Source: Flammula alnicola
Lineage: Eukaryota; Basidiomycota; Agaricomycetes; Agaricales; Strophariaceae
Length of the DNA: 64,000 nucleotides
Direction of reading: 5' to 3'
Assembly: GCA_015499995.1 (NCBI GenBank)
Contig: JADNRV010000042.1
Coordinates: forward strand, 124,001-188,000
Part shown: piece after piece, positions 46,981-54,710 of the stretch
Position numbering within the stretch: position 1 is the stretch's first letter
How the letters are laid out: every line of letters begins with the position of its first letter
Position numbers and translations under genes: made by a program
The notes under the pieces: model-generated
What the model was told of the DNA's origin: nothing
Database searches by the model: none
Seen by the model: the letters and a program-made list of their open reading frames with translations, nothing else

Positions 46981-49900
46981 CTACGCAGCCAAAACCTCCA
47001 AAACGTCTGGATTTCGCATTATCGTAGCCTTCGCGATTGCAGCAAAACTCTTCATTGAGTTTAATATCATCTCCGACATCACTCGATGCATCACCAGCAT
47101 CTTGGGTGTAGCCTTGGGCATCTCAATACTTCGACAAACCACTGCAAACCTCTGAACAAAGATGAAAGCATGCTCAGACGACGAGACACCATCGTAAACA
47201 ATTTCGCACAAGCATAAGTAGGAGGGAGTGTCGAGACCATCGCAGATATCACAGACGTCAGGACTTTGGCTACTACTTCCCATCTTCTCAGACATGACAT
47301 CTGTCGACTCGTCGGCAATGCTGTCTGCTTCTGCCTGGGTGCAGCCTCCTTCATGACCATCTTGGTGTGGATCTCTTCTAACAATATTGCCTACCCCGCG
47401 GCAGGTAACCAGGACCACTTTACTCTTCTGCGCATTAGTCAGTGTTTCACCTGATGCAATCCGCAGGTGTTTCTGCTCTTCGCTGTCCTTAACAGCCTGG
47501 GCGCAGATCTCGATGATCTCCTCCGCAACATCAAACATGATGCCCTTATTCTTGTCTTGCAGTTTGGCTTTGGCGACCTATGTATAGGAACAAGTTAGTA
47601 TCCCGTCTGCAGCATCTGTCGAATATCTCGAAAGAGAAACATACGATAACATCATATCGTTGGTGAATGTCGCCCCACCGCTGTAGACTCTGGATCAACA
47701 AATGGACATCTCGCTCCTTGAGCTCCATCGCCTTCTGGCTGGCTGTCTTCCTTGTTGGACCAGGTGCCTTAGGCTTCTTGGGTGCAGACGCAGGAGTGGG
47801 CTGGTCAATGTCCATACCCTCATAAGACACCTGAGCATGCATTTATTTACGAGTCTCATTATTGATTGACTCTTCTGCCCATCGCTCATCCTCGTCCGCC
47901 TCAAACTTTTCACATTCATCGAGAGGGATGATATCCTCCCAATTCATGTCATTCTTGACGTCGCTGACAGCTGTGAACTGAGCAAGGAAGTTCTCGCCAC
48001 CGAGAGAGGCACCGACGCCTTCGCCCGCTTGCGTCGTCTCGTGGTCTTCGCCATGGTTCAGGATATCGTCAAGGTCCATTTCATCAAGTTTTTTATTTTG
48101 CTGGGTATCATCCTTATCTAACCTATTATCCACAAAGTTTGATTTGAGCAATAAATGTGCGCATATAACAAAATGCATGCTTACATCTTCTGAGCACCAT
48201 ATTTCAAGGCAGCAGTCAATTCATCCTTGCTCGAATTATCAGGCTTGTTCATGTCTTTCGTGGGGGCCTTGGAGCTCAGATGGGCTTGTGACGTATCCAT
48301 TTGGTTAATAACTGACCGAAAACAGGGCGAGCACATGGTGGTTAGAATAAACAATGTGTGCAGAGCAGGGAAATATGATCACGCACTAGCATACTCGAGC
48401 ACCATCTTCTTCTTTGCGCACTCCAGGACGTCCTCCTCCATTGTATCCTTGCTTACAAATCGGTACACATTCACATGCGACTTTTGCCCAATTCGATGGG
48501 CGTGGGCCATCGCCTGCAAGTCATTTTGCGGGTTCCAATCTCTCTGTATCAACACATGATCAGCACAAACGGGCCGAAGATGATATGCCCACTCCCCCTC
48601 CACCCAAAAGAAGATATAAGAAAACACATACATCAAAGATAATGACGGTGTCCGCGGTCTCCAAATTGATACCGAGCCCACCAGCCCGAGTGGACAGCAA
48701 GAACGCAAAGTCCGGCGAGCCAGGGGCATTGAAATGGGCGATTGACTTCTTGCGGGCTTCCGAAGCGACCATGCCGTCCAGACACTGGTGTGCATATCCT
48801 CGGAGATGCATGTAGTCGCTGAGAATGTCCAGCATGTGGACCATCTGGCTGAAAATAAGCACACGGTGCCCGTCGTGCTTGAGGCGAATGAGGAGCTTGT
48901 CAAGCAGCACAAGTTTGTCTCTTCCTTGGTATCTGTGGGTGGTTCAGCACCATCAAACAAGTACAGATGGTTTGTGACTTTCGGCTTTCTTCAGCTCCAT
49001 CGCTGCAGGTAAGAGGGTCAACCAACAGAACAGAAGACCAAGAACACAAGACACCCACCAATGTTGAGAAGACTGATATTGCTATTGCCATTGGCACTTT
49101 TCACAAGAGCAGCAAAGTTCTATCATGCACGTTGAGCGAGGGATATTGGCACCTACAAACAGTCAACCATACCTTGGTCAAGATATTCTTGTAAAAGTGG
49201 GTCTGCATGGCACTCATTTCTACATGCAAGATCTGCTCGCTCTTCGTCGGCAACGACGTAAGGATGTCCTTCTTCAGTCGCCGGAGCATCAACGACTTGA
49301 GCTGCTCATGGAGCTGCTTGATCTTCATCTTATGGTCGGCATCGCATCCGTTAAATCGAATTCATTTGTCAGCGCAACTATTCGCAAACGTTCATCAACC
49401 TTCATTCACAAACATGAAAAGAGAGAGAAAATGACCAACATTTCTTGGGCATGAGGAAATGCATCAACGAAAGCAGCTCTGCGCAAATAATGCTCAGTCA
49501 GCAAGCAAGGCACAAGGACATCAAAAAGCACGCACCTTTCATGTTGTTCTGCAGCGGAGTGCCTGTAATGAGCAGCTTGGAGGCAGCATGGAATGCTCTC
49601 AGGGCTTCATACAGCTGGCTCTCCGAGTTTTTGAGACAATGTGCCTGTGCAGTCCAGCGATCAATGATCAAACCATATCTCACAGGAAATATGCAACACA
49701 CCTCATCAACAGCCAGTGCCTGCCACTTGATATCTGCCAGATCCTTCGTGTCTCGCAACGTCAGTTCATAGGTCGTCAACAAGACATTCATCTTGAGCTT
49801 CTTGTTGGACGCGCTGAACTCATACTGGCAGATGACTTCCCGAGCAGGGGCAGTTTTGATGTAGGTGATGACATTGATATCCGGCGCCCACAATGCAAAC

Positions 49901-50130
49901 TGAGACTGCCAGGCAGTGATAGTAGAGAGAGGGATGATGACCAGGAAAGGACCATATTGCTGGAGTTTGTGGAAGAGGTAGGAAAGGAAGGCAACAGTTT
50001 GGACGGTCTGCGATGCAAGACATATTAGACAGTAGATTAAGCTTAGAGGTAGTGCATATGATTTTACCTTTCCGAGACCCATCTCATCGGCGAGGATGCC
50101 ATTCTCGCCATTGCTCCACAAAAAGGCAAA
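46981..50130 (-). pseudogene. CHD1-type chromatin-remodelling ATPase fragment (decayed)
   Basis: The Snf2 ATPase motifs of CHD1 appear in order: [30 protein letters not shown] (the DEAH box is restored by removing a 57-nt intron), [90 protein letters not shown]-like part follows (LIQSLQRWGDIHQRYDVI, VVLVTCRGVGNI). Introns are retained, so it derives from genomic DNA. It is broken: a 5-nt tandem duplication (GCATC GCATC, 49339-49348) shifts frame before the KIKQLHEQLKS segment, and frames slip again at the ELKKA...LFDGAE and TKEET...LLDKLL joins. The chromodomains are absent; the ATPase begins abruptly at [10 protein letters not shown], next to a kinesin fragment. Confidence 0.82.
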
Positions 50131-50159
50131 GCATGTGGGCCAGAAGTTGGCAGAGGTGG

Positions 50160-50560
50160 ATTGCTTGCAGAGTTGATTGAAGGTGGATTCGAAGCCCTCA
50201 CTCCAAGATGAGATTTCGGCCTTGAATGATTTATGAACGGCCTCGATCTCATGCTTGACAGCATCGAGTGTGTTGCCTTTGATGACTCCATTGGATTCGA
50301 TCTGTTGGAAAAGCTCCTGTGCTCTGTTGAAGTATTGCTCGACTTTTTGGACATGCGTTGCAATTGCCTGTTGTTCGGAAGATCAGAATTTCTTGGTTTC
50401 GTTCTCGAGGCTGGCCCTCCTTTCGTACGATAACTGGCAGAACTCGGCAAGTTTCTTCGTAAGGGAATCTGTAAATGCATGAATGAGTCTTTCATTCTCC
50501 GATACCACCTGGTTATTCAACACCAAGATGGGTTTGCCACAAGCATCAGGTTTTCTCCGA
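50160..50560 (-). pseudogene. Probable kinesin-5 stalk/tail fragment
   Basis: A helical coiled-coil-like stretch (ERLIHAFTDSLTKKLAEF, then [48 protein letters not shown]) resembles the region after the stalk in BimC/Eg5 kinesins. It passes directly into the CHD1-like ATPase. The assignment is tentative because coiled coils look alike; the presence of a kinesin-5 motor piece 1 kb away supports it. Confidence 0.4.
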
Positions 50561-50599
50561 AAGCTGGTGCCGAGTATCATATATGGTCAGAATTTTCAA

Positions 50600-52959: not shown

Positions 52960-53060
52960 TCTTTGCCTTATAGTTCTCGTGCCTTATAGTTTGTCGCATT
53001 TCTTTTCCCTTATAGTTCCTTTATATTTGATTTATGCATTATGCCTTATTCCGATTGGAA
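52960..53060. repeat. CTTATAGTT short repeat
   Basis: Several spaced copies of (g)ccttatagtt occur within about 90 bases. They are followed by the near-palindrome ATTGGAATTCCAAT (about 53054-53067). No function is inferred. Confidence 0.45.
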
Positions 53061-53067
53061 TTCCAAT

Positions 53068-54552
53068 TCGGCATCAGTGTGATTGAGACCTCTACAGAAA
53101 CGACGAGAAAAGGCCACTACGACCACTAACTACTGAAACACTACGACCACTGAAAAGAGCTTCACCAAGTCTAACGAACCCAATGAATATCATGAGGTGA
53201 ACATACCAGTCAATGAACGTTCGGTCTTCAACGGTGAGTTCTTGGTCAGAGGAAGAAGAAGCGCCGGCAGAGTCTTCGCAGGATTCAGGGATTCAGGCCA
53301 GAAACTGACGCCGTATCTGACAAGTTGCCGACTGCTGTGTAGCATCTTGGTGTCTTCGCGAGGCAATGTTGATCCAGCTGCCAGCTCATGCAAGGATGCG
53401 TGCAAGGATGCATCTCAATGTCGAAGTTGAGTGGGGATCTTGAACTCGAAGCCTAGTTGACAGGAGATTGATATTGTGACGAGCAGTATGGCGAGCGGGT
53501 GTTTAATGGATCAGGTTAGTCGAGACCAATGAAGCAATGGAGGATTTTCAGGCATTGAGAATGCCAATGGAAGGTCTGCTACTGCGTCAGATTTTTCAAC
53601 TGGACCAACGGGGTTGGTGGCGCTGGTGCTGTCAGTGTTGTCATCAGAGGCTTTGTTGTTGTCGGAGGCTTTGGAGGACCAGGCAAACTGAGAGCCATTG
53701 TCGTTAAAGGGTCGTCGAGCGCAAGCTTGATGGTGGCTCGATGGTGGGGCGGAAATGCTAAAATGCTAAACACTGGTCATTACTTCCGGAGGGGTTGAAC
53801 CCTTCCCCGCAGTTCATGCGGGCATGCAGGTCGTCAAGGCGGGTGTGGCGTAAAGTAGTGCAGATGGGCCGAAGTCGTTACTGGAGAGTCCTGGAAAGTG
53901 AAGAGAGGATGGGAATTGGGAAGCGGAGGTCGAAGCAGAGACTGAGACATCCGATGCTTAGTGTCGGGTTTCTTAACGGGGGCACTGGGGGTTGTCTGTG
54001 CAGGCTGGTCAATGTCAACACTGAATGTGAATTGCATGCGCTTGATGGTGGGCATTCTGGCTGGCTTCGTGGTTGCATCGCCAGCGCTGCTTGATCATAT
54101 CGGTGGAGTGGTTACGTTTGAAATCGGGTGCCTTGAGCTCTTCGATGCTCCGTCCTTTCTCTTTGTCAAGCTTGTCCCCCATGCATTTGCTGAGCTGGTG
54201 TCGACATGAGATTCTGGAGATGCCATAACCTCCAACTCAAGTACTCAAGTCCTCGAGTCTTTGAAGGTTGCTGAACGCGATGAAAGACCAAGTCTAAACC
54301 TATGTGAAATGTGAATATGGTGAACAAACACGGGGGGTCGATGTACGATAAACATATCGCCTAGGCGAGATGGCTGACGTTGGCCGATATAATGATGACG
54401 ACCAGCCACGGGCATGGCAGGGTGGTAGAAACAAAGCTACAGCGACATGCATGTCAAGAGGATCGAAGATCGACGTGCCCCAAGATGAGTTCGAGCAGTT
54501 GTTGTTGAGCGTCCGAGGACAGGTCGAGTGTAGTAGGTGGCGACCTTAGTAA
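53068..54552. other. Mosaic filler, no identifiable gene
   Basis: Short minus-strand frames look partly protein-like (for example IEELKAPDFKR...IKQRW near 54100-54160) but I cannot match them. Given the surrounding fragments, other captured exons may be hidden here. Confidence 0.4.
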
Positions 54553-54710
54553 TGGCAATGTGCTTGAAGATGTCATTGGCGAAGCTGTTGAGGATGGCCA
54601 TCATGCACACGGATGTCTGGATTTCGCGTGAAGAGCTAGATAGTGAGCGAGATGCCTCGGTGGCAATGCGCTTGAAGATGTCGTTGATGAAGCTATTGAG
54701 GGCGGTTGTC
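54553..54710 (-). pseudogene. Histone H2B fragment, partly duplicated
   Basis: On the minus strand, ALNSFINDIFKRIATEASR and SSSREIQTSV match the alpha-2/alpha-3 part of H2B. Immediately afterwards a second copy begins, MMAILNSFANDIFKHIA. The loop between the helices is shortened and the remaining histone is absent. It is a small captured and internally duplicated exon, with the same orientation as the CHD1, kinesin and PAN1 pieces. Confidence 0.72.

Follow-up and report, generated by a model that had tools for sequence, protein, structure and literature searches.

How do fragments of several unrelated host genes come to lie side by side, on one strand, within a few kilobases of a mushroom genome? 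The question is raised by a 64,000-nucleotide stretch of Flammula alnicola DNA (contig JADNRV010000042.1; G000:C357:124001-188000), hereafter the window, taken from an assembly of 74.4 Mb in 861 contigs (designated C with a number). A preliminary description, made from the letters of the window, placed at 46981..54710 a minus-strand mosaic of kinesin-5, PAN1-like, CHD1 and histone H2B pieces and attributed it to a Helitron or a Pack-type transposon. In this study, the mosaic was found very probably to be the cargo of a giant cut-and-paste transposon of the Plavaka group (PlavakaB, CACTA-like), shaped by genomic capture, deletion, movement and CpG decay.

The limits first given for the mosaic are not those of the mobile unit, which in fact spans 38192-66387; 46981-54710 as a whole element was rejected, since the copies found elsewhere in the genome extend to 38192 and 66387. 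The giant element measures 28,196 bp in total, and its right end lies 2.4 kb past the window. It is delimited by the following features:

38192..64000 within the window: whole PlavakaB-type element, true right end 66387 (C357:190387); defined by its ends, CC/CC flanks, the empty site on C858 and the copies on C6, C60, C857, C40 and C297
38192..38202, plus strand: left terminal inverted repeat, CATCAGGAAAA
38190..38191: left copy of the 2-bp target site duplication CC; right copy at 66388-66389, outside the window
38192..38490: subterminal region on the left side, containing short tandem repeats; shorter elements of the family (C347, C10) have it as their left end as well

The termini read CATCAGGAAAA on the left and TTTTCCTGATG on the right. 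An empty site at C858:206801-206960 has the sequence TCATTCCCGGAGG, while the window element stands between TCATTCCC and CCGGAGG, which indicates a 2-bp duplication, CC. Many short genome matches end at or within a few bases of 38192, marking this position as the left border. Matching 2-bp flanks were found in five of the six insertions readable at both ends: CC for the window copy, GG for C857, TA for C347, CC for C10 and TA for an element nested in the window copy. C347 and C10 are elements of 6-7 kb that have only end regions and short repeat stretches in common with the giant copies. CATCA..TGATG termini occur at both ends of the window copy, C6 and C857, and at one end of C60 and C297, the other having been lost at a contig end. 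PlavakaB elements are described as having 5'-CATCA..TGATG-3' termini, a 2-3 bp target duplication and TET carriers among their members (Kojima 2025, PMC12730594, section 3.2.2), and all TET-carrying Plavaka families are placed within PlavakaB there. Judged by the sequence of its ends and its 2-bp duplication, the element fits this published type. A search of a plasmid collection gave no match.

The transposase gene is still aboard. The Plavaka transposase domain (PF18759) was detected on the plus strand at window coordinates 64292-65686, beyond the window itself (3e-47; 161.9 bits against a cut-off of 26.3), and it is preceded on the same strand by a further frame:

62856..63683, plus strand: open frame upstream of the Plavaka transposase frame, judged by eye to be its N-terminal part; no family match above cut-off

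The transposase frame comprises 464 codons in the window copy versus 551 in C297 and C857, and is broken in C6. Unless assembly error, which is possible, accounts for the short and broken frames, the window and C6 copies would need transposase supplied from elsewhere.

Donors of the cargo were identified by a DNA search of the same genome. In minus-strand order, starting at 54705 and finishing at 46925, the cargo comprises the following segments, with one open frame listed last:

54553..54705, minus strand: histone H2B piece, partly doubled; best intact-gene match C212:349125-349317 (stretches of 51 and 35 bp, 91-92%)
about 53522..54251, minus strand: piece of an AreA-type GATA transcription factor, heavily eroded; donor C601:181771-182770
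52074..52963: segment common to C6, C60, C857, C297 and partly C40
51576..52069, minus strand: kinesin-5 motor piece; donor C346:324758-325252 (94.5%)
50529..51575, minus strand: PAN1-like WH2 region with an internal deletion; donor C823:169543-171086 (91% and 83%)
50143..50528, minus strand: kinesin-5 tail piece; donor C346:325799-326184 (94%)
47383..50127, minus strand: CHD1 chromatin-remodeller ATPase region, introns kept; donor C223:608174-610914 (92.4%)
47315..47382, minus strand: CHD1 donor-locus piece; C223:611916-611984
46925..47310, minus strand: CHD1 donor-locus piece, distal; C223:613013-613430 (82%)
49498..50382, minus strand: open frame of 294 codons that passes without a shift from the kinesin-5 tail piece into the CHD1 ATPase, introns read unspliced (SNF2-rel_dom, 4.2e-35)

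The minus-strand pieces and their order were thus real, and donors exist in this genome for all five that had been named. Those of the kinesin-5, PAN1-like, CHD1, GATA and H2B pieces lie on five separate contigs (C346, C823, C223, C601 and C212, respectively), in keeping with the earlier idea of unrelated source genes; the two kinesin pieces belong to one gene, and the GATA factor had been missed. The CHD1 and kinesin/PAN1 matches extend over hundreds to thousands of bases with E values at or close to 0, which excludes chance for those pieces, and the closest relatives of solved structure are kinesin-5 for the motor piece and CHD1 for the ATPase piece. PAN1 is the name used in the preliminary description for a gene with WH2 and SH3 regions; a WH2 piece is indeed present, but the SH3 domain scanned in the C823 donor falls outside the captured stretch. 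The H2B piece also matches C73 and C545, and its donor call rests on short matches. For most of 52074-52963, the genome DNA search found no donor. Parts of 54708-56151, to the right of the H2B piece, match other places in the genome. Donors were met on two contigs with like identity in several cases (C113/C91, C201/C146, C142/C858, C223/C700 and C212/C73), and the kinesin, CHD1, PAN1 and GATA donors each appeared once; the assembly may hold both haplotypes in part.

The junctions record how the mosaic was built. The PAN1-like piece stands where 547 bp of the kinesin gene would be, which indicates that it was probably added within an earlier capture. Each of the two kinesin/PAN1 junctions shows a small overlap between the donor matches, 1 bp in one case and 2 bp in the other. 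Other junctions are less regular: neither aligned end accounts for the 4 bp at 47311-47314, and the difference between the window and C6 at 54708-54714 comes with a 7-bp overlap. At least six giant copies, including that of the window, were found (the others on C6, C60, C857, C40 and C297), and their flanks differ where readable; copy counts are lower bounds, with 40 of 111 and 40 of 89 candidates scored in two genome searches. C6 and C297 have the same kinesin/PAN1 junctions within different flanks, and CHD1-internal junctions recur in C6 and C40, one of them also in C60 and C857. The mosaic, which the preliminary description had allowed might prove single-copy and borderless, therefore has defined borders and junctions that recur in copies with other flanks.

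Comparison of the copies points to differing histories. The C6 copy (116814-141293) carries this mosaic as well, with an additional 2.5 kb separating CHD1 from the kinesin tail; this stretch consists of further CHD1 (C223:607217-608218), Rax2 (C223:220707-221449, 95%), a C142 fragment (90%) and further kinesin (C346:326357-326973); a family scan of the C142 donor piece gave no match. On the simplest reading, the window copy lost these 2.5 kb by an internal deletion at 50129, which joined the kinesin tail to CHD1. C60 and C857 are 98.9% alike over 6.2 kb, with differing left flanks, and have the left part of the element in common with the window, together with portions of the captured CHD1 and kinesin sequences. 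In place of other genes of the window copy, they contain a terpene synthase piece (C201/C146; PF19086 above cut-off in the donor) and a P-type-ATPase-like piece (C113/C91; two Pfam matches, both below cut-off). About 300 bp resembling part of the terpene synthase piece are kept in C6. C297 has a right flank different from that of the window and is thus a separate copy, and the C40 copy is interrupted and ended by a contig end.

The single orientation of the cargo, put forward earlier as a general feature, describes the window better than the family. All five identified genes of the window cargo lie on the minus strand; family-wide, seven of the eight orientable genes share a strand, with Rax2 and the ATPase-like piece oriented alike and the terpene synthase opposite in C60 and C857 (two-sided binomial p about 0.07, calculated by hand; the C142 piece has no family match and was thus left out of the oriented genes). 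A strict one-strand rule fails across the family, and the pattern is suggestive only.

The CHD1 piece is informative about the route of capture. All five of the between-exon stretches examined are kept almost whole in the window copy (57/58, 211/212, 168/168, 119/120 and 252/252 bases; as the stretches were set by exon peptides, some coding bases are possibly included). This indicates that CHD1 entered as genomic DNA, and for this gene the earlier statement that introns were kept holds.

Substitutions in the cargo are also distinctive. When CHD1, the two kinesin pieces and PAN1 of the window were compared with their donors, 134 of 312 donor CpGs had become TpG or CpA, against 14 of 186 in the reverse direction. 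Counts were also made for GATA in the window (14/42 lost vs 2/31 reverse), the terpene synthase piece in C60 (22/55 vs 2/36) and the C142 fragment in C6 (13/29 vs 0/15). In a control with the host alleles of one gene, Rax2 on C223 and C700, 23 of 743 sites differ and CpG changes stand at 4:4. Differences other than those of CpG type amount to 113/4631 (2.4%) between donors and window cargo and to 15/743 (2.0%; one control gene) between the host Rax2 alleles. As far as these sequences tell, the differences between cargo and donors fall mainly on CpG sites and run toward their loss, as would be expected of methylated DNA. Capture may only slightly predate the divergence of alleles within the species, CpG loss having then been fast.

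Other origins of the mosaic have to be considered. A Helitron, that is, a rolling-circle element reading through into downstream genes, could in principle assemble such cargo. Captured genes in plant Helitrons show a sense bias, and Helitrons lack terminal inverted repeats. Multi-gene capture is given as typical of plant Helitrons (PMC6431247), and Helitrons are stated to make no target duplication (PMC4289320). The terminal inverted repeats, 2-bp duplications, Plavaka transposase and internal position of the cargo all contradict a Helitron here, and no Helitron protein family was found among the open reading frames scanned, which were part of those in the element. A Helitron was rejected on the inverted termini and the empty site with its duplication, and it deserves almost no credence. 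The other half of the earlier assignment was right in kind: multiple genes were captured by a transposon, the Plavaka group is CACTA-like, and the element with its captured-gene mosaic is Pack-type in kind. It might also be argued that the region is segmental duplication or insertion debris lying within repeats rather than a mobile unit, given that the window copy is itself flanked by repeated sequence, that C6 has no target duplication and that the copies seem recombined. The copies nevertheless end at the same bases beside unrelated flanks, an empty site exists for the window copy and the donors are on separate contigs, which leaves debris extremely improbable. Ordinary segmental duplication, which contiguous parental genes would have suggested, was rejected: the donors are non-contiguous, on five contigs, and the copies have borders in common. 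A set of observations does count against one Plavaka unit with decaying genomic cargo. The C6 copy is without matching 2-bp flanks. Over 38353-44931, the window and C6 differ by 2.6% at non-CpG sites (0.5% within the final kilobase), compared with 0.2-0.8% in the five segments that follow on the right; with the left part more divergent than the right, recombination among copies is probable, and the unit does not trace a single simple lineage. The CpG bias of C6 is weaker (43/221 vs 15/191 reverse, three pieces aligned) and weakest in its Rax2 piece (9/65 vs 3/59 reverse). The TET/JBP match of the element is below the family cut-off, and the GATA and H2B pieces are each without an intron of the donor, the GATA loss being at splice sites (judged by eye).

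That intron loss also fits capture of spliced RNA, so the DNA-level route is established for CHD1 only. Retrocopies recombined into the element would account for the GATA intron gone at its splice sites and for the intronless H2B piece, and there is precedent in a histone H3 retrocopy within a hAT element (PMC6710886). The kept CHD1 introns speak against such a route, as do features of the GATA piece itself, in which there are many further small deletions outside introns and in which the edges of the intron deletion carry a 2-bp repeat; capture through RNA is accordingly unlikely. A different proposal concerns the fate of the cargo: chimeric proteins, for example the kinesin-5 tail joined to the CHD1 ATPase, might act in the element's favour. 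The 294-codon frame does cross the kinesin/CHD1 junction in frame, and in the 506 codons of the CHD1 exons, silent changes outside CpG outnumber replacing ones (20 vs 9). However, replacing changes prevail at the CpG sites of CHD1 (20 silent, 27 replacing) and among the non-CpG changes of the kinesin tail (3 silent, 5 replacing) and PAN1 (7 silent, 15 replacing); two of the 12 exon peptides, one of CHD1 and one of the kinesin motor, were unmatched in the aligned segments and are left out of these counts. There is one stop in CHD1 and one in the kinesin tail, indels are present too, and in the kinesin motor frame the third codon counted from the PAN1 junction is a stop. Allelic divergence that preceded capture (2.4% vs 2.0%) can also explain the excess of silent changes in CHD1, and functional cargo is very unlikely. 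Frameshifts, cited earlier as signs of decay, were set aside as weak evidence, for one-base gaps at coding positions are seen in the donor CHD1 too when it is aligned with the captured copy, through assembly error or real damage.

Under the preferred explanation, a giant Plavaka transposon with captured genomic DNA, the fragments would have been copied in during gap repair after transposition or breakage, the copying strand switching into host genes; such template switching is suggested by the abrupt junctions. The captured fragments would later have been trimmed by internal deletions, and the cargo would have been carried along when a Plavaka transposase moved the element, as the borders, duplication and empty site imply. 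Host methylation may then mark the copies and lead to CpG loss, and the element's own TET/JBP gene may no longer protect them.

The TET/JBP match in the window is as follows:

41211..41621, minus strand: TET/JBP dioxygenase domain piece (PF12851), below family cut-off, with stops in the matched frame (introns or damage)

In four giant copies, PF12851 scores 21-27 bits against a cut-off of 34.9, and one or two stops interrupt the frame that matches. Genome-wide, there are 32 TET/JBP (PF12851) matches, of which 26 are above the cut-off; none of the four located in giant copies reaches it. Five matches, on C323, C235, C268, C588 and C779, are near-identical in score.

The window copy of the element is further interrupted by two insertions:

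56152..60576: nested element with the same CATCAGG...CCTGATG termini and the target duplication TA; present in C297, absent from C6, C60 and C857 (C40 left out of the comparison)
44932..46924: later insertion, flanked by the 10-bp repeat CCGTTCATGA; absent from C6, C60, C857 and C40

The nested element, which C297 shares with the window, is partly GC-rich and has 31-bp tandem repeats. The later insertion, 2.0 kb in length, has imperfect inverted ends and contains a tandem array of 11-bp units; by the length of its duplication, we take it to be possibly Mutator-like. GATA/H2B pieces also occur outside the six giant copies, at C175:13424-15307 (91%) and, more distant, at C126:51173-53954; these may show cargo exchange between element families. 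Elsewhere in the window, diverged direct repeats (75-84%) form two sets, at 20840-25163 and 29152-35007, with spacings of about 3.46 and 5.13 kb; they are perhaps tandem gene duplications.

Several known systems resemble this element in part; the comparisons that follow extend to the available portions of the articles cited. PlavakaB elements with a TET/JBP gene in Agaricomycotina (Kojima 2025, PMC12730594) are alike in transposase, termini and 2-bp duplication, and the sub-threshold TET/JBP match seen here recalls their gene. The present element differs in its at least five host-gene fragments, its 28-kb length and its weak, interrupted TET/JBP match, and cargo of this kind is not reported in the available part of that article. 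Plant Pack-MULE, Pack-CACTA and Pack-TYPE elements likewise hold unrelated host-gene fragments between terminal inverted repeats (PMC8903248, PMC13317346); here the host is a fungus, the group is Plavaka and a transposase gene, shortened in the window copy and broken in C6, is present. Plant Pack-TYPE elements are described as non-autonomous (PMC8903248). A word search of the accessible text of PMC8903248 returned no fungal words. In Dothideomycetes, histone H3 was transduplicated by hAT elements (PMC3538342, PMC6710886), which is similar in that a fungal DNA transposon captured a housekeeping gene, and the hAT histone H3 copies of P. fijiensis then decayed by repeat-induced point mutation (RIP; PMC3538342, PMC6710886). 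Unlike the giant Plavaka element, the hAT cases involve one host gene (a retrocopy in PMC6710886), elements of about 2.3-9.5 kb and ascomycetes. The Pleurotus Helitrons HELPO1/2 (Castanera 2014, PMC4289320) are mushroom transposons with one to four captured gene-like sequences; they differ in being rolling-circle elements with cargo of unknown origin, and their authors conclude that host gene fragments were not captured. A literature search at the level of titles and abstract openings found no published case of multi-gene capture by Plavaka.

Capture of fragments from multiple host genes is best known from plants. The fungal cases found, in the parts of the literature available, comprise hAT elements with one captured host gene, TET/JBP genes aboard transposons of several groups, and Helitrons whose cargo is of unknown origin. 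In F. alnicola, one genome holds the donors, an empty site and at least six copies of differing history, from which one can read directly in what order capture, deletion, recombination and CpG loss took place. The system also allows a direct test of whether a transposon-borne TET/JBP gene protects its element from methylation.

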